From positions 1-39,249 of the forward strand of contig JAFLTF010000013.1 of assembly GCA_022510585.1 (NCBI GenBank): a DNA stretch of 39,249 nt. Reading direction: 5' to 3'. The stretch comes from Lachnospiraceae bacterium. GTDB lineage: Bacteria; Bacillota; Clostridia; Lachnospirales; Lachnospiraceae. The notes beneath the pieces are model-generated. The model had not been told where the DNA came from. It ran no database searches and was given only the letters and a program-made list of their open reading frames with translations. Positions 23,549 through 39,249 of this stretch are shown piece by piece (the stretch's first letter is position 1; every line of letters starts with the position of its first letter). The translations under genes and the position numbers were made by a program.

Positions 23549-23571
23549 TGTATACCTCATCTTGAAAAAAT

Positions 23572-23599
23572 ACCGGCTTCCGTATGGATGGAAACCGGC
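23572..23599 (-). terminator. Intrinsic terminator of the chemosensory operon
   Basis: A 10-base stem (ACCGGCTTCC 23572-23581 with GGAAACCGGC 23590-23599) forms on the minus-strand RNA with two G-U pairs and an 8-base loop, followed by TATTTTTTC. The wobble pairs exist only on the minus strand, confirming direction. It lies about 50 bases past the hybrid kinase stop. Confidence 0.82.
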
Positions 23600-23650: not shown

Positions 23651-26221
23651 TCATTCGCCTTCCGAAGATTCCTTCTTCCCCAGATACTGCTGCAACACAC
23701 GCATACACTCCTTTACGTCAATGGGCTTTGCAATATGGGCATTCATGCCAAAATCCATACAGCGCTGCACATCATCGGAGAAGGCATCCGCTGTCATGGC
23801 AATGATCGGCAGATCCTTATCCGGACGGTCAAGAGAACGAATGGCCTCTGCTGCATGGTAACCATCCATCACAGGCATACGCAGATCCATCAGAATAGCG
23901 TCATAATATCCGACTTCTGATTTTTCAAACAGCTCAACACACTCTTTTCCATTGACTGCCCTTTGCAGTTCCATTTCCGTTATGGAAAGGATCTCGCTGG
24001 CAACCTCCCAGTTCAAATCGATATCCTCTGCCAGAAGAATCCGTTTACCTTTGAAGCTTATCTCCGACAGGTCGCCCTGATCTTCATCGCCACTTACGAC
24101 TTCCGTATACTGCCGCAGACGGTAGTACAATGTGGACTTAAAGAGCGGTTTGGAAATAAAGCCTTCAATCGTGGACGGATCTAACTGATCTTCTATATTT
24201 TTAAAGTCATATGCGGAAACCAGGAAAATCGGAATGTCGATTCCTACCCTTTTGCGAATCTCACGGATCGTCTCCACACCGTCCATATCCGGCATTTTCC
24301 AGTCGATTAAGACAAAATGATAATCATCCTCTTTGTTATGGCGTTCCTCTATCATTTCTACGGCTTTCCTGCCGCTTAGCGTCCATTCTGCATGGGTACC
24401 CAACTCCTCTAAGTTGGAAACCACGCTTTCACACAACATCTGATTGTCATCCACCACCAGGATATTCCACTCAGGCAGTACCATTTCTTCCTGACTGACA
24501 TCCGATTTTTTCAAATCAAGTGTAACATGGAAGGTACTCCCTTTGCCCTGCTCGCTTTGCAGGTCAATGGTTCCGTTCATCAGATCCACAATCCGCTTCG
24601 CAATGGAAGTTCCCAGGCCGGTTCCCGTGATAAAACGAACCTGTTCCGTCTCCTCTCTCTCAAAGGAATTCCAGATCTTTGCCTGAAACTCAGGTGACAT
24701 GCCGATTCCCGTATCTTTTACCAGAAAATGGGTCCGGACATGATCCTCGCCTACCGGTGACTGCTCCTGATAGATATGGATGGTGATTTCTCCTCCCGTA
24801 GGGGTGAACTTTACAGCATTTGATAAAAGATTCATCAGGACCTGATTCAGCCGCACGCTGTCACAGAGTACATTCTCCGACATAATATTCTGGATATAGA
24901 TATCAAAAAGCTGTTCCTTCTCACTTACCTGAGGCTGTATGATATTCACAATATTGTCCATGATCTCACGCAGGCAGATCGGCGCCATATTTAACACCAT
25001 TTTGCCACTGTCGATCTTGGACATATCAAGTACGTCATTGATCAGACTCAGCAAATGATTGCTGGAAAGACTGATCTTACTTAAGCAATCTTCCACTCTT
25101 TCTTTGTCATCAATATTCTTCTGCGCAATTCCCGTCATACCAATAATGGCATTCATCGGCGTACGGATATCATGACTCATACTGGAAAGAAAATCGCTTT
25201 TGGCAATATTCGCGCGGTCCGCTTCTGTCCGTGCGATCTCAAGTTCCTTGATCTGCTGCTGCGACAGGCGATAATACAATACAAAAACAATCGCCAGGAC
25301 AATAAAGATAAGCACAACACTAAAACTGGTGGCCCTGATCCGAAGCGCTGATAACTCTGTAATGGAATCTGTCAGGAACGTGGTAGGCATGGCGCAGATC
25401 AGATACCAGTTTAAGGTTTCGGGAAGAGGCATACAATAGATTTCGCCCTCAATATCTTCCAGTACGACATGGGCAAAATAGGTATCCTCGTCTTTCATAA
25501 CTTTCTCAAGTTCATTGACATATTCTTCCGGACGTTTTCCTTCCATCGGTTTATACTTATCCCGCATGCGGTCAAAATAATTCTTATCGGTATGAATCGA
25601 ATTACCGATAACGATCTCCCCTTTTTCATCAATGATATTAAAATATATCATGGTGTTACTTTCTCTAAAGAAGAGCGCATTATCCAGATAATCCAGGGTA
25701 CTTCCGGCAATCAAAGCAGTGCTGGTTCTTCCGTCTTCCATCGGATACTCTGCTTTCACGCCCAGAAGGAATATCGGTTTTCCGTCATCTGTCTTTCCCA
25801 ATGCAATGAGTCTTCCGTTGTCATTCAAAGAATCCATGACATATTCTGCGTCCGCAATTTCAAGCTCATCTCCATAAAGGACATCCATGTCACCATTATC
25901 CGCATAGAGCGCCAAATAATTAAATGCGCGGTTTTTTGCACTACGCTCCAGTGAAGCGAACATCCCTTCCGCATCGTCCATCGTTTCGAGAGAATAACGC
26001 TCAACAAGTTCTTCGATTTGCTCCGTGCGCAGATCGATGATCGTCTGAAATCTCTGTTGAACCTGATTGCTCATCTCAGTCATATAAGTATAGCTGATTC
26101 CTTCAATAGATTCTCTCGATCTGTGTATCATGAAGACAGTCAGCCAGAGAAATACCAGCGCACTGACAACAACAACACAGGTAATACTACCCCTGAATAA
26201 ATTGGAAAACTTTTTATCCAT
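23651..26221 (-). CDS. Hybrid sensor histidine kinase with two receiver domains
   Basis: An 856-aa membrane kinase. A membrane helix (about 12-33) is followed by a large extracellular double-Cache-like sensor region (about 35-290) and a second helix (about 300-320). HisKA has the phospho-acceptor in SHDIRTPMN (H350). The ATPase domain has LNQVLMNLLSNAVKFT, DTGIGMSP and GTGLGTS. Receiver 1 has acceptor D640 in VLIDWKMPDMDG and receiver 2 has D779 in ILMDLRMPVMDG, both with the conserved Lys-Pro near the end. No built-in Hpt domain is present, but a free Hpt protein is encoded 5 bases upstream. Start at 26221 follows GGAGTAAAGATT. It is the last gene of the chemosensory operon. No DNA-binding partner regulator is adjacent. 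Confidence 0.93.
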   Translation of the reverse strand: MDKKFSNLFRGSITCVVVVSALVFLWLTVFMIHRSRESIEGISYTYMTEMSNQVQQRFQTIIDLRTEQIEELVERYSLETMDDAEGMFASLERSAKNRAFNYLALYADNGDMDVLYGDELEIADAEYVMDSLNDNGRLIALGKTDDGKPIFLLGVKAEYPMEDGRTSTALIAGSTLDYLDNALFFRESNTMIYFNIIDEKGEIVIGNSIHTDKNYFDRMRDKYKPMEGKRPEEYVNELEKVMKDEDTYFAHVVLEDIEGEIYCMPLPETLNWYLICAMPTTFLTDSITELSALRIRATSFSVVLIFIVLAIVFVLYYRLSQQQIKELEIARTEADRANIAKSDFLSSMSHDIRTPMNAIIGMTGIAQKNIDDKERVEDCLSKISLSSNHLLSLINDVLDMSKIDSGKMVLNMAPICLREIMDNIVNIIQPQVSEKEQLFDIYIQNIMSENVLCDSVRLNQVLMNLLSNAVKFTPTGGEITIHIYQEQSPVGEDHVRTHFLVKDTGIGMSPEFQAKIWNSFEREETEQVRFITGTGLGTSIAKRIVDLMNGTIDLQSEQGKGSTFHVTLDLKKSDVSQEEMVLPEWNILVVDDNQMLCESVVSNLEELGTHAEWTLSGRKAVEMIEERHNKEDDYHFVLIDWKMPDMDGVETIREIRKRVGIDIPIFLVSAYDFKNIEDQLDPSTIEGFISKPLFKSTLYYRLRQYTEVVSGDEDQGDLSEISFKGKRILLAEDIDLNWEVASEILSITEMELQRAVNGKECVELFEKSEVGYYDAILMDLRMPVMDGYHAAEAIRSLDRPDKDLPIIAMTADAFSDDVQRCMDFGMNAHIAKPIDVKECMRVLQQYLGKKESSEGE

Positions 26222-26226
26222 AATCT

Positions 26227-26580
26227 TTACTCCATATGTTTCTCTATACATGCAACGATCTGCTCCTGCACGGGAATGATCTTCTCAAGAAGCGCTCTCG
26301 CCTCCTCAGGATTACCGGCACGCAGCAGCTCAACGATTTTCGTATAAGCTTCATAAACAGGGGTAATCGACAAATTCCCCGAAACACCTTTGATGGCATG
26401 TGTCTTTTCTATGACTTCATCGCAGTTTGCCGCATCAAAGTCGGCTCCTACGCTATAAGTTCTGATAGATTTTGTAAAAGACCCCAGTAACTTGATATAT
26501 AATTTTTCATTTCCGTTAATACGCTTCAAACCTTCGTCAACATTGACGCCTAAAGCCTTCAATTCATCTAATAATGCCAT
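26227..26580 (-). CDS. Stand-alone histidine phosphotransfer (Hpt) protein
   Basis: A 117-aa four-helix phosphotransfer protein. The acceptor motif HAIKGVSGNL gives H61, and the C-terminal helices (ELLRAGNPEEARALLEKIIP) fit the Hpt fold. The start has a strong GGGAGG site, and the stop is 5 bases before the hybrid kinase ATG. It almost certainly relays phosphate from the two-receiver hybrid kinase to a receiver elsewhere, possibly one of the regulators in the same operon. Confidence 0.92.
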   Translation of the reverse strand: MALLDELKALGVNVDEGLKRINGNEKLYIKLLGSFTKSIRTYSVGADFDAANCDEVIEKTHAIKGVSGNLSITPVYEAYTKIVELLRAGNPEEARALLEKIIPVQEQIVACIEKHME

Positions 26581-26632
26581 GATTTTTCCTCCCTTCCGAT
26601 GCCGAACGATATCTCTTCTTTTTCACTGTTTC

Positions 26633-26658
26633 GGCACAGGGACTTTCCTCCCTGTGCC
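26633..26658 (-). other. Perfect hairpin between the chemoreceptor and Hpt genes
   Basis: GGCACAGGGA (26633-26642) and TCCCTGTGCC (26649-26658) form a perfect 10-base stem with a 6-base loop. It is not followed by a T-tract on either strand, so it is unlikely to stop transcription. It may protect or process the mRNA, setting different levels of the upstream chemotaxis genes and the downstream Hpt-kinase pair. Confidence 0.65.
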
Positions 26659-26679
26659 TATATTCTCCTCGTTTACCGA

Positions 26680-28044
26680 TCAATATTTACCGAAATCATC
26701 TCCTAAAGAGATCACCTGCTCATTTGCGCTTGCAGCCGAATAAGATGGTGTATAGGAGCTGCTTCTGGAAGGGGCAGGAATGTTGTTTCCCGAACCCAGA
26801 TCATAAATGGCAAGCATCTGGCGCATTTTGGACGCCTGATTGGATAATTCTTCACTGGCTGCCGCACACTGTTCACTGGTAGCGGAGTTGTTCTGTACAA
26901 CCTGAGATACCTGTGTGATGGCCTGCTCGATCTGTGCAACTGCGGTTGCCTGATAATTGGAAGACTCCGCAATACCGTTAATAATGGTCTCACTATCCTT
27001 TACTGCTTTGGAGATCTCCTCCATCGCCTTGGATGTGCTGTCCACGATCTTGGAACCGTAGCTGACTTTGGCAATGGAATCCTCAATCAGTTCCGAAGTC
27101 TCCGCTGATGCTGCCGCACTCTTCGCTGCAAGGCTTCTAACCTCTTCCGCTACAACCGCAAAACCTTTTCCGGCTTCTCCTGCTCTTGCTGCCTCTACCG
27201 CTGCATTCAATGCCAGAATATTGGTTTGGAAAGCAATATCGTCTATGGTCTTAATGATCTTGGAAATATTCTCGGATGACTTATTGATATCCTGCATAGC
27301 AGCCATGGTATCCTGCATCTGCTTATTTCCCTGGGCAACATCTTTGATTGCCTGCGCCACAAGCGCTGCCGCCTCGGTTGCCTGGCTTGCATTCGTTTTG
27401 GTCTTATCCGCGATCTCATTGATGGATGCGGTAATTTCCTCAATTGCGCTGGCCTGCTGCGTAGAACCCTGCGCAAGAGCCTGACTGGCGCTGGCCACCT
27501 GAGAAGAACTGATGGTCACCTGAGAGCAGGATTCTGAAATATTGTTCAGTGCATTTAAGTTATCCTCTACCAGTTTCTTCAAAGAATTTCCCAGGATATC
27601 ATCGGGAGAACTGGGTTTCACGGAAACAGTCAGATTGCCTCCTGCCACTTCTTCCGCAATGCCTGCCTGATATTTAATATTATCCACAACTTTCGTATAC
27701 TCATCTACCAACTCACCGAACTCATCCTCATAATACTTCACCATATGAATGTTATCTACACGTCCCAGGGCAAGATCTTTTGCCACCTCACTCATCTGCG
27801 CAATGGACTTTTCAATGGTCTTTATCAATGCAAAGGCAACAAGTAGTGCAATCACGATGGATATCACCGTAATTCCGTAGGACAGAATAACGGAAAAGGT
27901 TGCAAACTGCTCTTGTTTAGCGGGGTCTGTAATAGTAGCCGCATATTTGGTTGTGATATTGTTGGCCAACATGTTGACCAAGATCAGTAAAACAGGAACA
28001 GCGAATCCTATTATCATTTTTGTCTTTATCTTCAAGTTTTTCAT
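26680..28044 (-). CDS. Methyl-accepting chemotaxis protein with minimal sensor domain
   Basis: A 454-aa receptor. Helix 1 (10-29) and helix 2 (51-73) are separated by only about 20 extracytoplasmic residues, far too short for a classical ligand-binding domain. One or two HAMP-like segments follow (about 74-170), then the long cytoplasmic coiled coil. The hairpin tip [21 protein letters not shown] and the [14 protein letters not shown] return strand (about 270-302) are typical and bind CheA/CheW. The C-terminus ([13 protein letters not shown]) lacks the NWETF-type CheR tether. Start at 28044 (MKNLKIKTK) follows AGAGGTATGAGAG; an ATG at 28062 overlaps the cheW stop (ATGA) and is also possible. 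It may sense membrane or redox state, or take input from another protein. Confidence 0.92.
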
Positions 28045-28058
28045 CTCTCTCATACCTC

Positions 28059-28604
28059 TCATTCTTCAACATTATTCATTTCATTCGCCTGCTCGACAAC
28101 CGATAAATCCTCATCATTCAGCAGTTTATCGGGATCTAACAGTAATTTGACAGAATCTCCAACCTTGCCGATACCATAGACATATTTGTGATGCGCCTTA
28201 TCGGCACGGCCAATGCTGGGAGGCGGCAGGATGTTATCTTCCTTGATCTCAACTACCTCTGCGATCTTCTCAATGATCAGCCCTACCATCATCCCTTTTA
28301 CATTAATGACAATAATACAGGTTCTGTCATTATATTCAAAGGGTTCCTGCTTGAACCGCAGTCTGACATCCACAACGGGAATCACTTTTCCTCTCAGGTT
28401 GATAAGACCTTTGATATAATCTTCCGTTTCTGGAATGGCTGTAATGGGCTGCAACTGGATGATCTCATTCACATATTGGATTTCCAGTCCGAAATACTCG
28501 TTTCCGGATTTAAAGGTCATATACTTCCCTTTTTGCGTATCATGTTCATCAGAAACAGCCTGATTTTCTTCAACCTGCTTCATCAATGCGCTCGTTTCTT
28601 CCAT
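28059..28604 (-). CDS. cheW: Chemotaxis coupling protein CheW
   Basis: CheW couples receptors to CheA. It is 181 aa, with an extended N-terminus of about 25 residues before the SH3-like CheW fold. Recognisable parts are [38 protein letters not shown] and [11 protein letters not shown], and a C-terminal [11 protein letters not shown]. The ribosome site is AAAGGAACGG. It lies 31 bases after cheA and overlaps, or nearly abuts, the receptor gene. Confidence 0.93.
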
Positions 28605-28635
28605 TCGATATACCGTTCCTTTCTGTATATAATTT

Positions 28636-30810
28636 TTATTCGATAATTCCCGCAGCGTCCAAAATCAGGGCTATGCTTCCGTCACCAAGCTGTGTACAGC
28701 CGGATAATCCTTTGACTTTCTTGACATAGGAGGGAATCGGTTTTACAACGATCTCCTGCTCGCCGACCAGTCTATCAACAAAGAGACAGATCTTTTTCTC
28801 CTCTACCTCAAGGATCAGCATCACGCCGTCTTCTATGGATTCTGCGTAATCTTTCAGTCCGTACCATTTTCCAAGCCTGAGTACCGGGAAACACTCGCCG
28901 CGTATCATAATATATTCTTCTCCGTTCGGCTCGTGAATCATCATATCCTCTGTCACACGGACAAATTCCTTAATTGCACCGGTTTCCATGACAAAGGAGG
29001 AGGACCCTACTTCCATGACGATACCGTCGATAATCGCCAGTGTCAAAGGGATCTTTAGACTCATGATACTGCCAAGTCCCTTTTTGCTTTCGATTTCCAG
29101 TGTACCGCCGATGGCCTGTATATTCTGCACAACCACGTCCATACCGACTCCACGTCCGGAATACTCGGTAACTACCTCATTGGTTGAGAATCCGGGCAAA
29201 GTAATGAACTGGAATACTTCCTTATCGGTGTAGGCACTGTCCGGTTTCAGATCATCTAAAAGTCCCTGTTTTCTTGCCTTGGCTATTATCTTTTCCCTGT
29301 CAAGACCGCCTCCGTCATCCTCTACGCTGATCCATACTTTACCTGCTTCGGTTTTGGCAGAAAGCGTGACTTTTCCTCTTTCCGACTTTCCGCTGTCACG
29401 ACGTTCTTTTTTGGATTCAATACCGTGATCTACGGAATTTCGTACAATATGCATCAAAGGATCGGAAATATGTTCTATGATGTTCTTATCCACTTCCGTC
29501 TGCTCGCCGACCATGACAAAATCAATATCCTTACCGAGTTTCCTGGATACATCGAAGACGATACGGTTCATCTTCTGGAAGGTATTTGCCAGAGGCACCA
29601 TTCTCATGGACATGATGACATTCTGCAGGTCGGTGGAAATCTTGGCAAGCTGTGCCGCAGCCTTATTAAAGTTATCCAGATTTAAGCCGGGTACCTTCAA
29701 GTCGGGATTCTGCAATACTACCGATTCCGAAATGACAAGTTCCCCGATCAATTCCATCAGCTGATCCATCTTCCCTACGCTTACACTGATAAAGGAAGTC
29801 TTCTCCGCTTTGGGCTTATCTTTGGCCAGCTTCTTTTGCTTTCCGGGCTCCTTGGACTTAATAACGAAATCACCCGGTGCAATGGCAGGTTTCTCGGGTT
29901 TTTTCTCCTCTTCCTGGGCTGCGCTTTCGGCTGCCTGCATTCTGGCATCGATTTCTTCTACGCTGGACTCTAAGTCAATGATCTGTGCTGCCGGCGTATC
30001 CTGTCCTCCAAAATCAAAGCCCTGTAAAAACTCTTCTGCCTTACATTCAAAAACATCTACTTTTTCGATGTCGTAACCGACTTTAACGATCTCACGGACC
30101 TGTTCTTCGCTGCATTGTGCCTGCAAAAGAATCTTAAATCCGTCTTTGAGGATCGTTTCGGCACATTCCGGATCGGATATGATATCCTCCGGATCATACA
30201 GCAGATCCTCCGCTATTTCCTTTAAGGCATAGACTACCTTATAGGCATGGACATTTGCCATCTCCGTATCGGCGTAAAAAGAAACATAGATCTTGAAAAA
30301 GTGACTGGCACTTGTGGAAACAGGGGCAATGTAGAACTGTTTCGGTTCTTCATGTTTATTCTCCGGAATTTCTTCTCCCCTTCTTTTGCCGCCCTTTTCC
30401 CCTTTCTTGATCTGTTCCAAAAATTCATCGAGCGTAGCTACAATTTCGCCGGACTCCCCGTCTGCCGGATCGCCGTTGCGAATTTTATCCATTTCGTTGG
30501 AGATGAAATCCGCTACCTCCAATACATGATCCACTAACTCCAAATGTGGCACATTACTGGGGCGGGATTCCCTCAGATAATAAAAGACGTCTTCAAGCTT
30601 ATGTGCTATCGCTGTGATCTCATCGAACATCATGATACCTGAAGAACCCTTAATGGTATGCATGGTTCGGAATATTTCATTGATACTGTCTTCGTCAAAA
30701 CTATCTGCATCTTTCTGGTCAAGAACCATTTCCTGCAGCTGTTCTAATAACTGACCGTTCTCAAAGAGGTACATATCCAGCATGCCGTCTGTATTAAATT
30801 CTTCCGCCAT
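28636..30810 (-). CDS. cheA: Chemotaxis histidine kinase CheA
   Basis: The kinase core of the chemosensory array, 724 aa. The P1 phosphotransfer domain has TMHTIKGSSG (H51). A second folded region (about 155-265, starting near FFKIYVSF) probably corresponds to P2. A charged linker rich in Glu/Lys/Ala follows. P3 dimerisation contains KMDQLMELIGELVISES. The P4 ATPase has HIVRNSVDHGIE, SVEDDGGGLD, FSTNEVVTEYSGRGVGMD and MSLKIPLTLAI. A CheW-like P5 occupies the last 130 residues. The start has a perfect AAGGAGAAGGAG site. It follows the CheY-like gene by 39 bases. Confidence 0.96.
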   Translation of the reverse strand: MAEEFNTDGMLDMYLFENGQLLEQLQEMVLDQKDADSFDEDSINEIFRTMHTIKGSSGIMMFDEITAIAHKLEDVFYYLRESRPSNVPHLELVDHVLEVADFISNEMDKIRNGDPADGESGEIVATLDEFLEQIKKGEKGGKRRGEEIPENKHEEPKQFYIAPVSTSASHFFKIYVSFYADTEMANVHAYKVVYALKEIAEDLLYDPEDIISDPECAETILKDGFKILLQAQCSEEQVREIVKVGYDIEKVDVFECKAEEFLQGFDFGGQDTPAAQIIDLESSVEEIDARMQAAESAAQEEEKKPEKPAIAPGDFVIKSKEPGKQKKLAKDKPKAEKTSFISVSVGKMDQLMELIGELVISESVVLQNPDLKVPGLNLDNFNKAAAQLAKISTDLQNVIMSMRMVPLANTFQKMNRIVFDVSRKLGKDIDFVMVGEQTEVDKNIIEHISDPLMHIVRNSVDHGIESKKERRDSGKSERGKVTLSAKTEAGKVWISVEDDGGGLDREKIIAKARKQGLLDDLKPDSAYTDKEVFQFITLPGFSTNEVVTEYSGRGVGMDVVVQNIQAIGGTLEIESKKGLGSIMSLKIPLTLAIIDGIVMEVGSSSFVMETGAIKEFVRVTEDMMIHEPNGEEYIMIRGECFPVLRLGKWYGLKDYAESIEDGVMLILEVEEKKICLFVDRLVGEQEIVVKPIPSYVKKVKGLSGCTQLGDGSIALILDAAGIIE

Positions 30811-30849
30811 CTCCTTCTCCTTTCCTGCATATTCTTATCAGTTCTTATG

Positions 30850-31242
30850 TCAGATTAATTCTAATTTTTTAAGCGCCTGCTCAAATTTATCCTGATCGAT
30901 AGGTTTGCCGGAGTATATGGTACATCCCAGATCAAACGCCATTTTTACGTTGGCTTCATCATTGAGCGCCGTCGTCATAATGACCTTAACCGCTTTATCT
31001 TCCGGAATGTTCCTTTCTTTTTCCAAATTCCGAATCCCCACAAGCGACTGATACCCATCCATGACAGGCATCATGATGTCAAGGCAGATCAGATCGTAAG
31101 GTTCTCCGTCCTCTAATGCCATCATAAAGGCATCCACTGCCTCCATACCGTCTACAGTCACATCACACTCGCCGTATTTTGACAAAAAATTAACCATAAA
31201 TTTTCTTGTCACAAAATCGTCTTCGGCTAATAGAATCTTCAT
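30850..31242 (-). CDS. CheY-like single-domain response regulator
   Basis: A 130-aa receiver without an output domain. It has the acidic pair EDD (7-9), phospho-acceptor D55 in LICLDIMMPVMDGY, Thr in IMTTA and the conserved Lys in YSGKPID (Gly in place of the usual Thr before Lys). It lies between cheB and cheA with strong ribosome sites on both sides. In this context it is the CheA output. In the absence of flagellar genes nearby, it is not certain that the motor switch is its target. A CheA phosphate sink is the alternative. Confidence 0.9.
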   Translation of the reverse strand: MKILLAEDDFVTRKFMVNFLSKYGECDVTVDGMEAVDAFMMALEDGEPYDLICLDIMMPVMDGYQSLVGIRNLEKERNIPEDKAVKVIMTTALNDEANVKMAFDLGCTIYSGKPIDQDKFEQALKKLELI

Positions 31243-31255
31243 AACTCCTTCTCCT

Positions 31256-32290
31256 TTACATTTTATTTAATAACGCGTATGTTCTTTTTGCGATATCATT
31301 CAATTTTTCTTGATACTCTACGGCCCCCAGATCGTAAGCGACCTTAGGCATACCGTAGACCACGCAGGTAGACTCATCCTGGCCTATGGTCCTTGCGCCT
31401 GCCTGCCGCATAGACAAAAGACCTTTTCCGCCGTCTCCGCCCATGCCGGTCAGAATAATGCCCACGGCGTCCCGGCCTGCTGCTTTGGCTACCGACTCAA
31501 ATAAAACTTCCACCGAAGGACAGTGCCCGTTCACTTTCGGCCCTTCTTTCACTTCCACCTGATAGCTTCCATTGACTTTGATGACCCGCATCTGTCTGTC
31601 CCCTCCGGGAGCAAGCAGCATTTGTCCCGGCATGACCCGGTCTCCTGTCTGCGCTTCCTTAACGTGAATCCGGCACTGATCATCCAGTCTTTTTGCATAC
31701 ATTGCGGTAAATCCCGGCGGCATATGCTGCACACAGACAATCCCCGGAATATCCGTTCCAAATTCTTTGACTACTGAGAAAATAGCCTCTGTACCGCCTG
31801 TAGACGCACCGATCGCCACAATGTGATTCTTCTGGGCCAGGGAGATCTGCTCCCCAGGGTCCTGACTTTTCATGACAGTCTTTTTAATATTGCTTATCTT
31901 GGCGGTGGATGCAATCTTTACTTTTACCAACAATTCATTTATGATAAAATCTTCAATCTGCGCCCGGCTGGTTGCCGTAGGTTTTGCCACAAAATCCACG
32001 GCTCCTGCGTTCATCGCATCAAATACCTTATCACTTAGCGAAGTGATCACAATAACCGGAAGCGGATACTGCGGAATTAGTCTTTTTAAAAATTCAATTC
32101 CGTTCATTCTCGGAAGTTCCACGTCAAGGGTCATAACATCCGGATGCTTTTCCAGAATGAGTTCTCTTGCTTCATACGGGTCCACCGCTGCGCCTACGAC
32201 CTCAATCGCCGGATCTTTTCTGAGATTCTGAACCAGCAACTCCCTAAATACGATGGAGTCTTCTACTACTAATACCTTAATCGGCCGCAT
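31256..32290 (-). CDS. cheB: Chemotaxis response regulator protein-glutamate methylesterase CheB
   Basis: CheB removes methyl groups from chemoreceptors and is activated by CheA. The 344-aa protein has an N-terminal receiver (acceptor D56 in VMTLDVELPRMNG) joined by a linker to the esterase domain. The catalytic triad is visible: S163 in GASTGGTEAI, H189 in VCVQHMPPGFT and D286 in LTGMGGDGGKG. It starts 3 bases after the cheR stop. Confidence 0.96.
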   Translation of the reverse strand: MRPIKVLVVEDSIVFRELLVQNLRKDPAIEVVGAAVDPYEARELILEKHPDVMTLDVELPRMNGIEFLKRLIPQYPLPVIVITSLSDKVFDAMNAGAVDFVAKPTATSRAQIEDFIINELLVKVKIASTAKISNIKKTVMKSQDPGEQISLAQKNHIVAIGASTGGTEAIFSVVKEFGTDIPGIVCVQHMPPGFTAMYAKRLDDQCRIHVKEAQTGDRVMPGQMLLAPGGDRQMRVIKVNGSYQVEVKEGPKVNGHCPSVEVLFESVAKAAGRDAVGIILTGMGGDGGKGLLSMRQAGARTIGQDESTCVVYGMPKVAYDLGAVEYQEKLNDIAKRTYALLNKM

Positions 32291-32293
32291 ACA

Positions 32294-33115
32294 TTAAGTC
32301 TCCTCTCTCTTCCTGAATATCGACGGCTGGATAATCTGAAACGGTGTACTGCTTCTGTCAATCGTTTCCGTTGTCCCGATAAAGAAATACCCTCCCGGTT
32401 CCATCGCGTCGTAAATACGCTTAACCAGATCCCGTTTCGTCTTATCATTAAAATATATCATAACATTGCGCATAAAAACAACGTGCATTTTTCTTTTAAA
32501 AGGAAATGGGTCCATCAGATTGAACTGACGGAAAAGGACTTCTTTCTTAAGCTCATCCGTCACCTGATATTGACCGCTTGAGTCAATCATCCTAAAAAAG
32601 CGCCGTTTCCAGTGGTCGGGAAGATTCTGCAGCTGTTCGTCGGTATAAATTCCCAACATTGCCTGCTGTAATACTTTAGTAGAGATATCCGTCGCCAGGA
32701 TTGTTTTATCCCAGCTGTTCTTCTCCAGACCAAAGAAATCTTCCAACACCATTGCGATCATATAGGGTTCTTCACCGGTGGAGGCTGCGCCACACCAGAT
32801 ACGCAGGTCTCTGCCGACCGCTTCTTTCTTTTTCAGCCAAGGGAGCACCTCGGATTTCAAATAATCAAAATGTTCAAACTCCCTCATAAAATAGGTATGG
32901 TTCGTGGTCAGAAAATTGACCAACGTCTTCTCCTGAAAACCTGTTATATCACTTTCTACCGCATCCATAAACTCATGATAATTATGCCATCCGTTCTGCC
33001 TTACATAATTCTCCAGTCTTCCGTTTACGATCACTTTCTTCTGACCAAGTTCAAGACCATAACGATTTTTCATGAATACGGATATTCTTTGTAATTCGTC
33101 GTCTGTCATTACCAA
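32294..33115 (-). CDS. cheR: Chemotaxis protein methyltransferase CheR
   Basis: CheR methylates receptor glutamates using S-adenosylmethionine. The 273-aa protein has the helical N-domain (1-75) followed by the SAM-binding domain with LRIWCGAASTGEEPYMIAM, ILATDISTKVL, VLFRQFNLMDPFPF, VVFMRNVMIYF and GGYFFIGTTETI. The probable start is TTG at 33115, seven bases after GGGAGGG; an ATG two codons later (33109) would put the ribosome site 13 bases away. With CheB it gives the system a methylation memory. Confidence 0.95.
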   Translation of the reverse strand: MVMTDDELQRISVFMKNRYGLELGQKKVIVNGRLENYVRQNGWHNYHEFMDAVESDITGFQEKTLVNFLTTNHTYFMREFEHFDYLKSEVLPWLKKKEAVGRDLRIWCGAASTGEEPYMIAMVLEDFFGLEKNSWDKTILATDISTKVLQQAMLGIYTDEQLQNLPDHWKRRFFRMIDSSGQYQVTDELKKEVLFRQFNLMDPFPFKRKMHVVFMRNVMIYFNDKTKRDLVKRIYDAMEPGGYFFIGTTETIDRSSTPFQIIQPSIFRKREET

Positions 33116-33145
33116 AGGTATTCCCTCCCAAGCACGGCAAGACTG

Positions 33146-34201
33146 TCAACGAAATTGCCGCGAAATCTTTTTGCATATTGTAAAAATATCCGGATCAAAT
33201 TTGCTCCCTGCTTCCTTCTGCATACACTCCAATGCCTCTTCTCTGCTGCAGGCGCCACCTTCCGTCAGTTTGGTATATCGTTCCATAATGGCTACAATCC
33301 GTGCCGCAAGCGGAATCTCTTCCCCTTTTAATCCTTCCGGATACCCGCTTCCATCCCAATGTTCATGATGAAAACGAATAATGTCGATCGCAATGCTGAT
33401 AAACTCATTATCGCTGCTGTTGACATACAGATCACTTAAAAGCTCTGCGCCGATCGTGGTATGCCGTTTCATAAGCGTCATCTCGTCTTCGGTCAGATCT
33501 TCCCTTTTCTTCAGGATCTCCATGGGCACTCCAATATTTCCGATATCCCGTATGGGCGCCGCAAGTTCGATCGCATCAATATAGGTATCCGAGATCCTGG
33601 CTTCAAAGAGCAGGGAAAGCTGCATTGCCTGTGCCATGGTCCTGCAGTTATTCTTCAGACGTCTCAAATACTCCTCTTTTTCATCGGAATTTTGCAGGGA
33701 GACATTTGTCAATGCATATAATACATTCTTTTTCTCCAATTCCATCTGCTTTACCTGTTCGCTGACAGAAATTTGAAGAAGTCTATTGTTCTTAAGCAGC
33801 TTATCCTGGGCTTCATACAACCGAAGCTGTACGCCTACCCGCGCTTTTACCACTTCCGGAATAAAAGGCTTGGTAATATAATCTTCTCCGCCCAGCCGAA
33901 ATCCTTTTACGATGTCTTTGGCATCGTCAAATGCCGAGATAAACACAATCGGAATATGCTGCGTCTCTACATCCCGCTTTAAGATCCGGCACAGCTCATA
34001 ACCATCCATCTCCGGCATGGAAATATCGCTCAGGATCAGCTGCGGTTTATGTTCTTTTACAAGTTCCAAAGCCTGCAGCCCGTTTTCCGCAAGGATGGGA
34101 GAAGCTCCCATTTCATCTATAATTTCTTCCAAAATCAGTCTGTTGGCTTCTAAGTCATCTACGATAAGGATCTTCTTACCGTCTATATTCTGATCAATCA
34201 C
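33146..34201 (-). CDS. Response regulator with degenerate HD-GYP domain
   Basis: A 351-aa protein. The receiver (1-120) is intact, with acceptor D59 in LILSDISMPEMDG. A coiled linker leads to an HD-GYP-like domain. The active-site HD is Arg-Asp (R218-D219 in APIRDIGNIGVP), the usual Lys is Asn (222), the upstream ligand His is Tyr (Y178), and the late Asp of the IADVYDAL motif is Glu in IMERYTKL. The FHHEHWDGSGYPEGL segment and H247 remain. With several metal ligands gone, c-di-GMP cleavage is unlikely; a binding or partner-modulating role is more plausible. Start is GTG at 34201 after AAGGG. It lies 15 bases after the soluble kinase, its probable partner. Confidence 0.88.
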   Translation of the reverse strand: MIDQNIDGKKILIVDDLEANRLILEEIIDEMGASPILAENGLQALELVKEHKPQLILSDISMPEMDGYELCRILKRDVETQHIPIVFISAFDDAKDIVKGFRLGGEDYITKPFIPEVVKARVGVQLRLYEAQDKLLKNNRLLQISVSEQVKQMELEKKNVLYALTNVSLQNSDEKEEYLRRLKNNCRTMAQAMQLSLLFEARISDTYIDAIELAAPIRDIGNIGVPMEILKKREDLTEDEMTLMKRHTTIGAELLSDLYVNSSDNEFISIAIDIIRFHHEHWDGSGYPEGLKGEEIPLAARIVAIMERYTKLTEGGACSREEALECMQKEAGSKFDPDIFTICKKISRQFR

Positions 34202-34215
34202 AACGCCACCCTTTT

Positions 34216-35646
34216 CTACAGAAAACCGTTCAACTCTTCACATTCAGACATTACTTTATCATAATTCTCTTTCTGAACCGCCATCTTCAGTTTCAGGACG
34301 ACCCTGGACATTTCATGGGGCGCTCCCTGCGTAAGCTGTCTGATGGTTTCCATGAACATTTCGGCCTTTTCCCAATTTTCCATTTCCACACAGAGAGTCA
34401 ATTTGGAAAGATTCTTTTTTAAAGCCTCTTTGTTTTCCGCAGTTCCGAATTCTATGGCAGCATCCGCATTTTCATTATCTTCTTCAGCCGGTGCAGTCGT
34501 GAACATGGAAGGCCATGGGGTCCCACTGTTTTCCTCCGGAAGCGGCGAGGCGTCTTCTTCACTGAGCCCAACCCAGATGGAAAAGGAAAAGGTCGTGCCT
34601 TTGTTTTTCTCACCTTCCGCTTCGATCTTGCCTCCCATCAGCTCCACCAGCTGCTTACAGATATTCAGTCCCAAACCGGTACCGCCGTATTTCCTGGAAA
34701 TGGAAGCATCCACCTGGGAGAAACTCTGAAATAATTTATCCTTATCCGCACTGTCAATGCCGATTCCGGAATCTTTTACAATAAAAAACAATTCTATCTT
34801 ATCATTGACCTGTGCCGTCTTCACCACCGTAACGGTAATCTTTCCTACTGTGGTAAATTTCAACGCATTGGATAAGAGATTATTCAAAATCTGTACAATA
34901 CGCAGTTCGTCTCCGATAATATATTCCGGAACCTGGGGAGATACCGTCATAAAAAAGCGAAGTCCCTTTTCCGTGATTTTATTGATATGCTGGTCTCTCA
35001 CATAATCCAACATATTTCTGAAATGAAACCGACGCGGCTCTAAAACGAATTTTCCTGCTTCCAGCTTGGAAAAATCCAGAATATTATTAATGATCTTATT
35101 CATATCCGCGCAGCATCGTTCGATTAGTCGTAGATTTTTTAACGGTTTTTCATCTTTTACTATATCCAGAAGCTCTCTGACATTGCCAAGAACGCCATTT
35201 ACGGGAGTCCGCAGTTCATGTGTCACATTCGCAACAAACTCCGATTTTACCTTCATGGCCTGCTGCGCTTCCTGTTTTACATGGACAATTTCTCTGGACA
35301 GATGCTCTTTCTCCAGCATATCGTTTGCCATACATATGTAAGTCTGTGCCTGTGTATCACTGCTGATAATCCGTGCCGCTACAGGGAAGCAAGTACGGTT
35401 CTTACGGTAGGCTACAAGATTTTTTATTTCATTCCCAAAAGGATAATCTGTCTCAAATCCGCCTTCGTCAGCATTAAAGGTATTCGGGAAAATCTCGCTG
35501 ATATGGCTTCCGCACAGTTCATCTCCATATTCCAACTTTTCTCTGGCTGCCGCATTTGCATAAGTTATTATTCCTGTCCAATTAAACACTAATATGATTT
35601 CCAGCGCATTTTCCACCGGAAACACACTGCTTTCACTCCATTCCAT
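34216..35646 (-). CDS. Soluble PAS histidine kinase with Hpt-like C-terminus
   Basis: A 476-aa kinase without membrane helices. The N-terminal PAS domain (about 10-115) contains NWTGIITYANAAAREKLEYG. HisKA follows with VTHELRTPVN (H143), then the ATPase domain with LRIVQILNNLLSNALKFT, DSGIGIDSADKD and KYGGTGLGLNICKQ. A Pro/Glu-rich linker joins a C-terminal helical segment (about 400-476) that resembles an Hpt half-bundle but has no phospho-acceptor His at the expected place. The ribosome site is weak (AAAGG, 14 bases from the ATG at 35646). It is separated from the first gene of the operon by a long hairpin and followed 15 bases later by the degenerate HD-GYP regulator. Confidence 0.9.
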   Translation of the reverse strand: MEWSESSVFPVENALEIILVFNWTGIITYANAAAREKLEYGDELCGSHISEIFPNTFNADEGGFETDYPFGNEIKNLVAYRKNRTCFPVAARIISSDTQAQTYICMANDMLEKEHLSREIVHVKQEAQQAMKVKSEFVANVTHELRTPVNGVLGNVRELLDIVKDEKPLKNLRLIERCCADMNKIINNILDFSKLEAGKFVLEPRRFHFRNMLDYVRDQHINKITEKGLRFFMTVSPQVPEYIIGDELRIVQILNNLLSNALKFTTVGKITVTVVKTAQVNDKIELFFIVKDSGIGIDSADKDKLFQSFSQVDASISRKYGGTGLGLNICKQLVELMGGKIEAEGEKNKGTTFSFSIWVGLSEEDASPLPEENSGTPWPSMFTTAPAEEDNENADAAIEFGTAENKEALKKNLSKLTLCVEMENWEKAEMFMETIRQLTQGAPHEMSRVVLKLKMAVQKENYDKVMSECEELNGFL

Positions 35647-35680
35647 GATCGTTAACCAAGCCTTTCCCCCACAATATGAA

Positions 35681-35714
35681 AGGCAGCAAAAAAAATCACC
35701 TTTCTTTGCTGCCT
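35681..35714 (-). terminator. Long hairpin between the first and second operon genes (attenuator?)
   Basis: A 14-base stem (35681-35694 with 35701-35714) forms, closed by a 6-base loop. GGCAGCAAA pairs with TTTGCTGCC at its base, and the single imperfect pair is a G-U only on the minus-strand RNA. The transcript continues TTTCATATTG, a short U-run. It lies 10 bases past the stop of the first HD-GYP gene, so it may partly terminate and lower expression of the genes downstream. Confidence 0.65.
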
Positions 35715-35724
35715 GCCACCGACT

Positions 35725-36816
35725 TTACGCAAACTCAAACATTTTAATTACTTCTATAATATTGAAGAAATCTTGTTTAGCAAGTTCGAAACATTCAAGT
35801 ACATCCGGTGCAAACTGCCCGCACTCACCATTCATGATCATCTCATATGCCACCTGGTTAGCATATGCACTCTTATATACTCTGGGACTTACCAATGCAT
35901 CATAAACGTCTGCAATGGCAACAACCTGTGTGTAGATCGGGATCTCTTCCCCTTGTAGATGATCGGGATATCCTTTTCCATCCCATCTCTCATGATGGTA
36001 TCTGCAGATATCATATGCATAACGATAAAACTCGTCTTGTCTATCTTTATAACTCTTCTCCAAAATTTCACAGCCAATGACGGAATGCTTCTTCATGACC
36101 TCAAATTCTTCCGGTGTCAGCTTGCCGGGCTTTAACAGGATTGCATCCGGAATACCGATCTTACCGATATCATGCAGCGTGGAGGCCCGGCAGATCAAAT
36201 CCATCTGTTCGGGTGTTATGTTATATTTCGGGAAATACTGCATCAGATACTTTAACATGATCCTCGTAAAATACTTGATCCGTCTGGTGTGCTCTCCTGA
36301 CTCTGCACTTCTGGCTTCCACAACTGAGCTGAGCATTTCGATCATAAACTCGTTGTTCTCACGCAGCTCTTTCTCCTGCGCTCTGATTTCCTCTTCCTGC
36401 TCTTTGAGGCGGATTTCCATATTCCTCTTATTCTGATAAAGCTCGATGATATTCTTGCTTCTTCTCTTCACGATATGCGGATAGAAAGGTTTATGTATTA
36501 CATCCGCAACACCATAGGAATATGCCTGGTCTTCACTGTCCAGAACATCTTCGCTGGTGATCAGTATGACAGGAATCTCATCCAGGATCTTATGCTCATG
36601 CATATATTCCAAGACACCGAAGCCATCCAGAACGGGCATTACAATATCCAGTAACACCACTTGGATATTCTCATTTTTCTCAAGCTGCTTGACCGCTTCT
36701 TCACCATTTTCGGCTTCTAACAGCTCAAAATCCTCATCCCGAAACATTTCTTTGAGTATCTCTCTATTGACTTCTTCATCATCTACAATCAGTATCTGTC
36801 GTATCTCTTTTTCCAT
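35725..36816 (-). CDS. Response regulator with intact HD-GYP domain (c-di-GMP phosphodiesterase)
   Basis: A 363-aa protein. The receiver has acceptor D57 in VVLLDIVMPVLDG and Lys-Pro at 109-110. A coiled segment rich in Glu (about 130-165) follows, then a full HD-GYP domain. That domain has ligand H176 (SGEHTRRI), HD at 215-216 in STLHDIGKIGIPDAI, H244, the pair H274-H275 in YHHERWDGKGYP and D303 in AIADVYDAL. Proteins of this type hydrolyse c-di-GMP when phosphorylated. It is the first gene after the operon promoter, with a GGGAG site eight to nine bases before the ATG. Confidence 0.93.
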   Translation of the reverse strand: MEKEIRQILIVDDEEVNREILKEMFRDEDFELLEAENGEEAVKQLEKNENIQVVLLDIVMPVLDGFGVLEYMHEHKILDEIPVILITSEDVLDSEDQAYSYGVADVIHKPFYPHIVKRRSKNIIELYQNKRNMEIRLKEQEEEIRAQEKELRENNEFMIEMLSSVVEARSAESGEHTRRIKYFTRIMLKYLMQYFPKYNITPEQMDLICRASTLHDIGKIGIPDAILLKPGKLTPEEFEVMKKHSVIGCEILEKSYKDRQDEFYRYAYDICRYHHERWDGKGYPDHLQGEEIPIYTQVVAIADVYDALVSPRVYKSAYANQVAYEMIMNGECGQFAPDVLECFELAKQDFFNIIEVIKMFEFA

Positions 36817-37010
36817 AAAATTATCTCCCGCATTTTTATAGTTTGCTACAATATATAAAATACCATTAATGCAATGTAACTGTCAAGAATAAGTCCGTAA
36901 AATATGAGGAAATTTCTGCTGCATTCAACCGGGTATGGTAGAGGAAGCAGCGGAAGTCATTGCTTACGGCACTGCTGTAAAATTCTTGAATTAGAATTCG
37001 GAATATTGTC
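36817..37010. other. Intergenic region: operon promoter and possible coding relic
   Basis: This is the longest gene-free stretch (194 bases). It contains the chemosensory operon promoter, a short inverted repeat AATTCT/AGAATT (36981-36998) that could weakly end the M56 transcript, and a plus-strand segment that reads like protein in two frames joined by a one-base shift (see findings). No RNA gene is recognised. Confidence 0.6.
36857..36886 (-). promoter_or_regulatory. Promoter of the chemosensory/HD-GYP operon
   Basis: On the minus strand TTGACA (36881-36886) and TATTTT (36857-36862) are 18 bases apart, with an AT-rich start region, about 40 bases upstream of the first ATG. This is a sigma-A type promoter; the TAAA...GCCGATAA pattern of a flagellar sigma-28 promoter is not present. 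Confidence 0.75.
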
Positions 37011-39249
37011 CTATAATGGCGGATTGATTGCGGTTATCTTATAATCTCCCGAAGAATCCATGTTGATCCACATAATCCCGTCTTCAACGCAGATTCCCAT
37101 ATAGTTCGCAAACATATATTTCGTATAAATATTTTCTATCTGTTGCTTGAAGCCATTCTGTTCCATCAACCGATCATATATATCAATCATGCTTTCCTCA
37201 TTTTCTATCATGATCTGGTCACCGTCTATCACAATAGATATTGGATACTGTATCAGTCCGGCAAAAGCTGTTTTTTCATTGACGGAATCCTTTATCTGTT
37301 GTGCAAACCGTTCTGCCTCATCTGCATTATAACCAAAGAAATCATAATAATTTACCAAATCATCCCCCATCGTGATAAAAGATTCCTGATAGAGTGTAAA
37401 TGTGACATTGCTTTGGGATAGCGCACCTTCACCGTTTATCATGAAATATCCATCATCCGTCTCTGTGATCATACCGTTTAAATACTCGCCATCATCCGTA
37501 TTTAAAACGAAACCCGCAGCATTGTTTGCCAGATTCCCCTGAAAAACTTTTCCTTCACCGCTTCTGGTAGTATATGCGGCATATAAGGAATCCTCTGTTC
37601 TGGTGATCATCATCCGGATTTCTTCATTTCCAATGTTGCCCGTATAAATATTATGTTCATTATTATGGATTCCCCTATTGATCAGTTCTTCGTCCTGCTT
37701 GGACAGTTCTGTGTCCTGTTCGGAATCTTCGGTATCTTGGTCAGAAGGTTCTGCATCCTGTTTAGAATCTTCAAAAAATGTACTTTCATATATCCATGTA
37801 GGCGTATCGGGCATTATATGATCGGAATCGTCCAAAGCAATATTTAACTGTATATCAAGCACACCATCCCCGTTACTGTCGATATTAGTTTCCACATAAT
37901 GATATGCCACATAATAAGCAGTCAACCCCTCTTTAATGTCAGGATGCATTTCATGAGCGAATCCGGCATGCTGATCCAGCATTTCGGTAAACTCTTCGAC
38001 TGTCATTTCTTTGGTGATTCCGCTTATAATATTATTTAGACTGCTCTCGATCCTGAATGATCTATCCTCGTCCGATAAAACAGAACCGGCAACCTCATCA
38101 TCATAATTTCCTTGAAAGACCACATTAGCATCCTTGCCTGAAATGGGTGCCTGAAAGTAAAGACCGTGATAAAATTCTGCCTCCGTACCGATCTGTTCTT
38201 TAAACTGTGCATATGTCATATCCAAGTACTGCAATAGCTGTGTGTTGATCGCCAGCTCATCTGTGTCTGCATCCTCTTGCGTATCTACTTGCATATCCAG
38301 GTTTTGTCCGGATGGCTCCTGCGGCATTTTCTCTTCCGCTAAAGGACGCAGTACCAAACCGGCAGCAACTCCTGCTACACATATGACCATCAGAACGGAA
38401 ATCACGATCCCATGCTTTCTAAAGCGCAATACATTTTTTATTCTGGTCTTTACCGCAGGCTCGCCAAAAGTAATGGGCGAAAGGACAAAACCATTCTGTC
38501 TGGCCGCATATTTCAGCAGGCTTCCCGCATACTGCTTTCTGATATTTCCCTTAAACTCAAGAAGCACCGCCTCGTCACAGGATATTTCCATATCTCTGCA
38601 GAACAGTGTATATGCCGCCCATACCAACGGATTGAACCAGTGAATGGCAACCACAAGAAATACCGCTACTTTCATCAGATAATCCTTTCTTTTCTTGTGA
38701 TACTGCTCATGAGCCACTATATATCGCATCTCTTCCGGTTCCAGATGGGCAGGCAGATAGATTATAGGTCTTAAAATCCCCCATAAAAACGGCGTGTCAA
38801 GTTCTGCCACTTCCGCAATTCCCTGCTTCTTACTAAAACGTATCCAATGATCTTTGGATATCTTTTTCTTCAGCCGGAGCATGCCGGTCAAACTCCACGC
38901 AAAAAGAACTGCTATTCCTGCCAGCCAAACTACGGATACAATTTTGATTGTCAGAGGTGTCGTCTCTTCCGCCGAAGCCTGAGATAAATAATCTGCATCA
39001 CCCGGATTCCCCAATGTAACATTGTAATTATTGTCTAAATCTGCTACAACATTCGGCATTGTAGGAATCGTCACAGTATCGGATCCGGACTGCACGCGGG
39101 AATCCAACACATCTTCGACGGCATCCGATACGGAAAACTCTGCCACGAAGCTTGGAATCAAACTGAAACCGCCTTGAAAAGAAAACGGAATGCATAAGTT
39201 CAAAAATACAACAAACCACAAATAATAAGTAAATTTTCTTTCAAACCTT
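37011..39249 (-). CDS. M56 (BlaR1/MecR1-type) membrane metallopeptidase, 5' end outside window
   Basis: The reading frame stays open from 37011 to the right edge. A TTG at 39221 is not the true start, because the codons before it (RFERKFTYYL leading into WFVVFLNLCIPFSF) continue the family's first helices. The N-terminal few dozen residues are therefore missing. Visible marks are a third helix (VVWLAGIAVLFAWSL), the zinc motif VAHEQYHKKRKD, HWFNPLVWAAYTLF and CRDMEISCDEAVL, then a last helix (ISVLMVICVAGVAAGLVL). The extracellular C-terminal 450 residues have no penicillin-binding sensor fold and hold two domains of unknown type separated by an acidic repeat. Such proteins usually pair with a BlaI repressor, which would lie beyond the right edge. 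Confidence 0.85.
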   Translation of the reverse strand, partial: RFERKFTYYLWFVVFLNLCIPFSFQGGFSLIPSFVAEFSVSDAVEDVLDSRVQSGSDTVTIPTMPNVVADLDNNYNVTLGNPGDADYLSQASAEETTPLTIKIVSVVWLAGIAVLFAWSLTGMLRLKKKISKDHWIRFSKKQGIAEVAELDTPFLWGILRPIIYLPAHLEPEEMRYIVAHEQYHKKRKDYLMKVAVFLVVAIHWFNPLVWAAYTLFCRDMEISCDEAVLLEFKGNIRKQYAGSLLKYAARQNGFVLSPITFGEPAVKTRIKNVLRFRKHGIVISVLMVICVAGVAAGLVLRPLAEEKMPQEPSGQNLDMQVDTQEDADTDELAINTQLLQYLDMTYAQFKEQIGTEAEFYHGLYFQAPISGKDANVVFQGNYDDEVAGSVLSDEDRSFRIESSLNNIISGITKEMTVEEFTEMLDQHAGFAHEMHPDIKEGLTAYYVAYHYVETNIDSNGDGVLDIQLNIALDDSDHIMPDTPTWIYESTFFEDSKQDAEPSDQDTEDSEQDTELSKQDEELINRGIHNNEHNIYTGNIGNEEIRMMITRTEDSLYAAYTTRSGEGKVFQGNLANNAAGFVLNTDDGEYLNGMITETDDGYFMINGEGALSQSNVTFTLYQESFITMGDDLVNYYDFFGYNADEAERFAQQIKDSVNEKTAFAGLIQYPISIVIDGDQIMIENEESMIDIYDRLMEQNGFKQQIENIYTKYMFANYMGICVEDGIMWINMDSSGDYKITAINPPL
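37683..37766 (-). repeat. Four 21-base tandem repeats encoding a seven-residue acidic repeat
   Basis: Inside the M56 gene, four in-frame 21-base units encode SKQDAEP, SDQDTED, SEQDTEL and SKQDEEL. They form an acidic linker between two extracellular domains. DNA copies differ by a few bases each, so the array is not freshly duplicated, but its length could vary between strains. Confidence 0.85.

Follow-up and report, generated by a model that had tools for sequence, protein, structure and literature searches.

Does a chemosensory array whose genes lie apart from any flagellar gene serve motility, or another function of the cell? This question is raised by a cluster of eleven genes on contig JAFLTF010000013.1 (C35) of the Lachnospiraceae bacterium assembly GCA_022510585.1 (2.53 Mb, 191 contigs, 80.4% complete). 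The entire contig (39,249 nt) was analysed and is referred to as the window; genomes of the family are labelled G (G000 being the source genome), contigs C and fetched loci L. The eleven genes are located on the minus strand, from position 36816 to 23651, in the order: HD-GYP1, PAS kinase (PASHK), HD-GYP2, CheR, CheB, CheY-like, CheA, CheW, methyl-accepting chemotaxis protein (MCP), histidine phosphotransfer protein (Hpt) and hybrid kinase. Pfam searches of the window proteins support these gene identities.

The initial annotation of this stretch described an operon devoid of motility genes, with two HD-GYP response regulators, and inferred that receptor activity is converted into turnover of cyclic di-GMP (c-di-GMP). 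The gene list stands, whereas the framing without motility and an output through two phosphodiesterases are not supported. The cluster forms a second chemosensory array that is genuine, conserved and mobile; it is called the cassette below. Modulation of flagellar behaviour is our best guess at its output; we give a roughly even chance to the reading that the cassette forms a second, adaptation-competent array of a flagellated Lachnospiraceae-type bacterium, which is separate from the flagellar che system and adjusts flagellar behaviour.

Conserved core and flagellated carriers

Two hundred genomes of the family were searched with HD-GYP2 and with CheA, and the loci were then fetched and their genes called. 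A CheA of the cassette type (threshold of at least 779 bits, i.e. at least 53% identity over nearly the full length) was found in 26 genomes, including the source genome. Eight genes (PASHK-HD-GYP2-CheR-CheB-CheY-CheA-CheW-MCP) are contiguous and retain the same order in 18 of these 26 carriers (the MCP of G060 was counted from a separate MCP table), which is a recurrence beyond chance of the gene order that the initial annotation had suggested looking for in other Lachnospiraceae. Near-complete clusters are present in G096 (no called CheR), G066 (no called CheY) and G115 (split across two contigs). Since the genes of the loci were called as longest open reading frames, such "missing" genes (CheR in L062, CheY in L066) may represent gaps in calling or assembly.

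None of the 26 cassette genomes lacks the PASHK-HD-GYP2 pair, which is attached to the cassette in 21 of them; in the other five (G029, G196, G011, G192 and G039) CheA and the pair are found on separate contigs. The pair was examined at the window and at loci L040-L073 (35 loci), 30 of which have it. Among the unpaired rows, L040 has no called PAS kinase, while L050, L053, L054 and L055 are nearer to HD-GYP1 or unpaired. PASHK adjoins HD-GYP2 in 30 of the 31 rows of the HD-GYP2 alignment (A2), the exception being L040. The pair may occur in further genomes, because the inspection covered only the stronger HD-GYP2 matches, those with fetched loci. A CheA-like protein of 348-499 aa is encoded after the pair at four loci (L069, 7704-8747; L071, 3662-5038; L072; L045, 7221-8717); those of L071 and L045 give Hpt and ATPase matches without a CheW-like domain, and that of L069 an Hpt match only.

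The remaining genes of the cluster are more variable. HD-GYP1 (35725..36816; receiver and HD-GYP domain) is located upstream in 6 of the 21 attached clusters (window, L041, L052, L056, L057 and L059). L057 repeats the MCP-Hpt-hybrid kinase arrangement of the window, L047 has a divergent version of it, and different hybrid kinases lie downstream of the cassette in other genomes. HD-GYP1, Hpt and the hybrid kinase, being present in few clusters or replaced by other kinases, are therefore considered accessories; the conserved unit extends from the PAS kinase through the MCP.

This unit contains the complete core chemosensory pathway, as judged by Pfam: (i) the MCP (26680..28062), (ii) CheW (28059..28604), (iii) CheA (28636..30810), comprising P1 (with His51 kept in the alignment), P2, the P3 dimerization domain, the P4 ATPase and the CheW-like P5, (iv) CheR (32294..33115) and (v) CheB with a receiver (31256..32290). 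It also encodes a CheY-like protein (30850..31242) consisting of a single receiver; among the family clusters in which this protein was called, the nearest 13 have copies of 83-97% identity. The CheY-like protein is the most conserved product of the cassette (96.9% identity to that of G106, whose MCP shows 65%), and this strong conservation implies a constrained partner.

Besides flagellar genes, the source genome has another che set. Contig C114 encodes FlhA, FliO, FliP, CheB, CheA, CheW, CheC, CheD and a sigma-70 family protein, together with a single receiver adjoining FliO, which was taken as CheY. Contig C126 encodes a second CheR and a CheW-domain protein of the size of CheV, whose length and receiver match suggest that it is CheV. 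The claim that motility genes are lacking is thus correct for the window, where no flagellar, CheC, CheD or CheV gene lies within 23651..36816, but not for the genome. Wrong binning is an unlikely source of the flagellar genes. The contig of the window and the flagellar contig belong together, because ClpC of the former and FlhA of the latter rank the same genomes as nearest (G060, with 83% identity for ClpC and 89% for FlhA, followed by G022, with 78% and 81%; ten genomes given). In addition, 25 other genomes likewise combine the cassette with flagellar genes.

Within the family, FlhA was found in 111 of the 200 genomes, as against all 26 cassette genomes and all 30 genomes with a PASHK-HD-GYP2 locus (P = 5e-8 and P = 3e-9, respectively, under an assumption of independence that these genomes do not satisfy). 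A purely non-motility role of the array is not favoured, since the source genome encodes flagella together with a che set of their own, and since every cassette genome has FlhA. CheA without FlhA was detected in 4 of the 110 CheA-positive genomes (G040, G068, G120 and G133), none of which has this cassette; non-flagellated arrays are therefore possible in the family.

The identity of the cassette CheA runs opposite to that of housekeeping proteins. G060, the genome nearest by ClpC and FlhA, has a cassette CheA of 61% identity, while the CheA of G188 (ClpC 60%, FlhA 75%) reaches 81%. Across the seven cassette genomes, besides the source genome, that were included in this comparison, the rank correlation of ClpC with CheA is -0.95, and that of ClpC with FlhA is +0.99. 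Moreover, the gene flanks at L041, L056 and L057 are not common to the window. On these two grounds, the cassette has apparently passed horizontally between related species. Differential loss of old paralogues was also considered; it could explain G060, but not the fact that the CheA of G188 is nearer than its ClpC. An empty insertion site was not seen (homologues of the gene downstream of the operon occur without the window neighbours in G060, G031, G037 and G041, i.e. in four of the seven genomes searched).

A wider contig scan, covering 80 loci from a list of at least 595 stretches and thus no census, found more distant relatives of the cassette CheA, with identities of approximately 41-44%; by record title as deposited, they belong to Syntrophomonas wolfei, an Epulonipiscium metagenome-assembled genome (MAG), Clostridium, Anaerovibrio and Selenomonadaceae. 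In the distant Firmicutes clusters a PAS kinase is located directly before the CheY-like gene, as it is in L085-L087 and L123 (the last with a broken CheA). This direct pairing identifies the PAS kinase and the CheY-like protein as old companions of the cassette CheA. In L085-L087, L104, L105, L107 and L123, CheA adjoins a CheY that shares 50-57% identity with its flagellar counterpart in the source genome; this neighbour suggests that the flagellar motor was probably the target of the ancestral array. The Lachnospiraceae gained HD-GYP2, and their cluster no longer has the flagellar-type CheY. One cassette of the scan (L095) lies on a contig of 1.2 Mb from a MAG deposited under the title Muribaculaceae, which is probably wrong.

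Receptor tail and PAS kinase

The MCP of the window has two apparent membrane helices, recognised by eye, with a very short segment between them. Beyond its helical domain it carries a conserved C-terminal tail of 14 residues (26683..26724). The tail of the cassette MCPs has the form (N)E(Q/R/K)xISLxxxFGKY and ends in DFGKY in the window. Its last five residues agree with xZxxZ, the published criterion for a pentapeptide recognised by CheR and CheB (PMC7390727).

Among the cluster MCPs whose C-terminus is complete, 24 of 30 have the ISLxxxFGKY tail, or 22 of 28 distinct ones (L094 and L100 are duplicate contigs of L065 and L047); four MCPs (L046, L096, L098 and L102) have variants of it. With the exception of one MCP of L049 (see below), receptors of less than 40% identity were left out of the count; they lie outside the cassette (L057, L060 and L096) or are cut (L074, as is L066). 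Neither the FGKY tail nor any other xZxxZ end was found among 27 non-cassette MCPs of G000, G188 and G106, whose three cassette MCPs all have the tail. By analogy with other pentapeptide receptors, the tail may insulate the array. Such receptors make up about 1% of those in Firmicutes and 2.89% of those in Clostridiales (PMC7390727), and the cassette MCP family may account for some of these rare cases. The length class of the MCP was also tried as a marker of the array and rejected, as receptors 14 residues short relative to PF00015 occur in at least three cassette-free genomes (G008, G049 and G080).

PASHK (34216..35646) is a soluble kinase of PAS-HisKA-HATPase architecture, with no membrane segment seen on reading its sequence. 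From the alignment, its C-terminal helical domain (34219..34449) is likely to be the remnant of an Hpt domain that has lost its histidine. The S. wolfei homologue (L107) contains two PAS domains, HisKA, HATPase, a receiver (REC) and a weak terminal Hpt match (E 0.0049) with an AHEIK motif; in the alignment, the end of this protein matches the C-terminal stretch of approximately 80 residues in the window copy, which lacks the intervening receiver. The receiver is present in two of the four distant homologues scanned (L104 and L107, not L105 and L117). At the position of the phospho-accepting residue, histidine is found in one of 30 orthologues (L042); the window has Glu433, and the 29 orthologues besides L042 have Glu, Asp, Ser, Gly, Asn, Lys, Ala or Thr. 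AlphaFold places helices between residues 403 and 475. The window copy gave no Pfam Hpt match, and the matches obtained in the fold comparison are filled by the kinase core, with the C-terminal domain barely covered. The PAS domain of PASHK contains a nearly invariant cysteine in the motif AYRKNxTCFPV and another common cysteine in YxCxA; it could be redox- or metal-sensing.

HD-GYP domains and the output of the array

HD-GYP2 (33146..34201) combines an intact receiver, whose residues are conserved in the alignment, with a degenerate HD-GYP domain. In the enzyme PmGH the metal ligands are E185, H189, H221, D222, H250, H276, H277 and D305; alanine at H189, H221, K225 or D308 abolishes or strongly reduces activity, and alanine at D183, K225 or D308 has an effect similar to ligand loss (PMC4159591). 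The HD-GYP2 of the window has Y178, R218, N222, E307 and T310 in place of PmGH H189, H221, K225, D305 and D308, while D219, H247, H278, H279 and the GYP motif are kept. In the tree of 31 HD-GYP2 rows, 16 form one clade with a support of 100/100. H221, the histidine of the HD pair, is missing from all 16, being replaced by Arg in the window copy, by Ser in L060 and by Cys in the other 14. K225 is replaced by Asn in every row of the clade and D308 by Cys in 14; D305 is lost in 15 (L057 keeps it) and H189 in 7, with D222, H250, H276, H277 and GYP kept throughout. The clade most likely arose from a canonical domain, because 8 of the other 15, more distant rows keep all seven ligands; D305 is the commonest loss among the rest, and H221 was lost separately in G192.

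The AlphaFold model of HD-GYP2, built from the 31-row alignment, has a mean pLDDT of 90.7 and shows the HD-GYP fold: the top Foldseek match is the HD-GYP domain of PA4781 (E 4.7e-14, TMt 0.85), and the c-di-GMP-bound HD-GYP domain of DvhD is among the matches at rank 20. Since metal ligands essential in PmGH are lost, HD-GYP2 is predicted to be a pseudo-enzyme. Both HD-GYP regulators of the initial annotation are therefore present as genes, one of them with a degenerate domain. The source genome contains a second HD-GYP2 that belongs to the same clade (L040, G000:C169, 9133-10203; 55% identical, CD..GN motif); it adjoins two hybrid kinases, and no che gene was called on its 11.3-kb contig.

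If the array acts on flagellar behaviour, its signalling might proceed as follows: (i) the receptor tail would recruit and dock the CheR and CheB of the cassette, thereby insulating the array; (ii) CheA would, via P2, phosphorylate both CheB and the CheY-like protein and might also act on the flagellar CheY; (iii) PASHK, whose own Hpt step is apparently dead, would respond to an internal signal by phosphorylating HD-GYP2 and might also transfer phosphate straight to the CheY-like protein; (iv) phosphorylated HD-GYP2 would serve as a switch binding a partner or c-di-GMP rather than as a phosphodiesterase; and (v) the combined output would adjust flagellar behaviour. In some species, HD-GYP1, Hpt and the hybrid kinase would supply accessory inputs or outputs, namely hydrolysis of c-di-GMP and a phosphorelay. 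A more specific proposal, which we put forward tentatively, is that of a mobile cassette in which both side branches are pseudo-enzymes, i.e. a PASHK with a dead Hpt and an HD-GYP2 with an ordered replacement of the metal site (CDxGN ... HHExWDGSGYP ... YCAL); HD-GYP2 would then be a phosphorylation-gated receptor of c-di-GMP, or of metal or redox state, feeding an FGKY-dedicated array that acts on flagella.

Several observations weigh against an array acting on flagella. Among the 30 genomes nearest by ClpC, just two (G003 and G198) lack FlhA, and both also lack the cassette, so that at close range the association with flagella says little. In just one of the 26 genomes (G106) is FlhA encoded on the contig of the cassette CheA, at a distance of approximately 29 kb; the link is therefore one of genome content and not of gene neighbourhood, and the adjacency to flagellar genes that the initial annotation had named beforehand as contradicting its proposal was not found. 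The tail is absent from L062 and from the first of the two MCPs of L049 (645 aa, encoded directly after CheW and counted as a cluster member, with an identity below 40%), in addition to the four variants, and the control MCPs came from 30 loci out of 48 matches in the three genomes used. Other receptors may join the array, because the length class of the cassette MCP also exists in genomes without the cassette. Finally, the multidomain regulators of the cluster favour a class of pathways with alternative cellular functions (ACF) outside motility.

An ACF-type pathway, in which c-di-GMP is controlled by an active HD-GYP1 with HD-GYP2 as a modulator, is nevertheless unlikely in our view. Multidomain response regulators are a described mark of the ACF family (PMC3447774), and the cluster has two of them by Pfam (REC-HD-GYP1 and REC-HD-GYP2). 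HD-GYP1 keeps all seven shared PmGH ligands and the equivalents of K225 and D308, and it alone of the two looks catalytic. Against such a pathway, it has Ser at the position of D183, which is important in PmGH, and is an optional member missing from 15 of the 21 attached clusters; HD-GYP2 is predicted to be inactive, and the cassette strictly co-occurs with flagella. Wuichet and Zhulin reportedly assigned the ACF class by CheA phylogeny or class hidden Markov models. What remains of the original proposal of c-di-GMP turnover without motility is the dedicated array, with its own CheR, CheB and receptor, REC-HD-GYP proteins and extra kinases; the lost ligands of HD-GYP2, the sparse occurrence of HD-GYP1 and the flagellated state of all carriers speak against the rest. 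Elsewhere in the family (L053 and L054), REC-HD-GYP genes of canonical appearance are repeatedly found next to hybrid kinases in tandem, with no che gene called nearby.

It is rather improbable that PASHK-HD-GYP2 and Hpt-hybrid kinase are ordinary two-component systems merely co-located with the che genes. Four genomes (G127, G134, G164 and G171) do have the pair without a cassette CheA, the pair lies away from CheA in G029, G011, G192 and G039, and the hybrid kinases downstream differ elsewhere; however, no cassette genome lacks the pair, which is mostly attached, and the PAS kinase already stands directly before the CheY-like gene in the distant Firmicutes clusters. Least probable is that the HD-GYP2 proteins of the crown clade have remained enzymes or metal sensors with a rebuilt site (Cys, Asp and three His), perhaps redox- or metal-responsive, instead of having a dead domain: the patterned replacement in the 16 clade rows (Cys at H221 and D308, Asn at K225, the rest kept) fits this idea, but neither Cys is present in the window copy, where Arg and Thr stand instead, and it was at H189, H221, K225 and D308 that alanine abolished or strongly reduced the activity of PmGH (PMC4159591).

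As regards the transcription of the cluster, all eleven genes were confirmed at the places and on the strand first assigned to them, and a single operon is plausible. A promoter-like site (TTGACA-18-TATTTT, with TG ahead of the second hexamer; 36857..36886, minus strand) precedes HD-GYP1, and a hairpin with a T-run, a likely terminator, follows directly 3' of the hybrid kinase (23565..23598, minus strand); one operon is plausible because of these two elements. The promoter consensus scan is weak evidence, with 43 sites compared to 31.8 (standard deviation 5.1) in shuffled sequences, and the terminator was recognised by eye and is not in the list of the hairpin scan. The intergenic gaps are short except for those between HD-GYP1 and PASHK (78 nt) and between MCP and Hpt (99 nt), which are the limits of the conserved core. 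Both of these gaps also contain hairpins, a reservation to the reading as one operon; that of the MCP/Hpt gap is a perfect 10-bp hairpin (26633..26658; scan) without a T-run on the gene strand.

The free Hpt protein (26227..26580) has a HAIKG motif and a weak Pfam Hpt match (E=0.0016) that falls short of the Pfam cut-off. The membrane hybrid kinase (23651..26251) has the architecture HisKA-HATPase-REC-REC and probably starts at 26221. The cluster contains six receivers by our count, one more than originally reported. In a comparison of 10 window proteins with NCBIfam, none of the families listed (best 25 per protein) reached its cut-off. Elsewhere in the window there are (i) a BlaR1-type M56 peptidase protein upstream of the operon (37011-39221), (ii) a GntR-family protein of 134 aa (9376-9780) directly ahead of ClpC, where CtsR/McsAB are expected, and (iii) a partial tRNA (1-53, minus strand; Rfam) cut by the contig end.

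Comparison with known systems

Among the titles listed from the open-licence PMC literature, none describes this cluster, and a description may be in print elsewhere. By record title, the carriers among the relatives include Roseburia, Agathobacter, Acetitomaculum and Anaerosporobacter; motile gut Lachnospiraceae thus carry a second, apparently undescribed array. If our reading is true, the cassette is a compact example of how a receptor tail can separate a pair of arrays within the same cell, and of how an enzyme of c-di-GMP metabolism can become a regulator within a chemosensory operon.

Among the closest known systems are the Firmicutes clusters of S. wolfei, the Epulonipiscium MAG, Anaerovibrio and Selenomonadaceae, which encode a homologous CheA, PAS kinase and CheY-like protein. 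They differ in that the PAS kinase has the receiver in two of four cases, with one weak Hpt match, several contain the flagellar-type CheY, and no HD-GYP2 was called between the PAS kinase and the che genes.

With respect to the receptor tail, the cassette resembles the Che2 system of Pseudomonas aeruginosa, whose one receptor, McpB/Aer2, is the only one to have a C-terminal pentapeptide, which CheR2 and CheB2 alone bind (PMC7698151). Che2 belongs to another phylum and has GWEEF, compared to DFGKY within a conserved 14-residue tail here; the available text on Che2 does not mention an HD-GYP protein.

With respect to HD-GYP2, a close parallel is PA2572/PA2573 of P. aeruginosa, in which a REC protein with a degenerate (YN-GYP) HD-GYP domain and no detectable activity is co-expressed with an MCP. 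The REC domain of PA2572 binds the MCP, and mutants of PA2572 and PA2573 swim and swarm less (PMC3411652). In contrast to the cassette, that MCP is called an orphan, no CheA is named in the text available, and other residues are lost. The degenerate HD-GYP domain of DvhD from Desulfovibrio vulgaris binds c-di-GMP without hydrolysing it (PMC13090378), as HD-GYP2 might. DvhD, however, is a membrane receptor with a PAS domain and without a receiver, in which HD is changed to SQ and HH to MN, whereas HD-GYP2 keeps the equivalent of D222, three histidines and GYP.

Finally, Wsp and other ACF pathways likewise join a che operon to a multidomain c-di-GMP response regulator (PMC3447774). The output of Wsp is a REC-GGDEF protein, while that of the cassette would pass through a predicted dead HD-GYP and a CheY-like protein, always together with flagella in the genomes searched.

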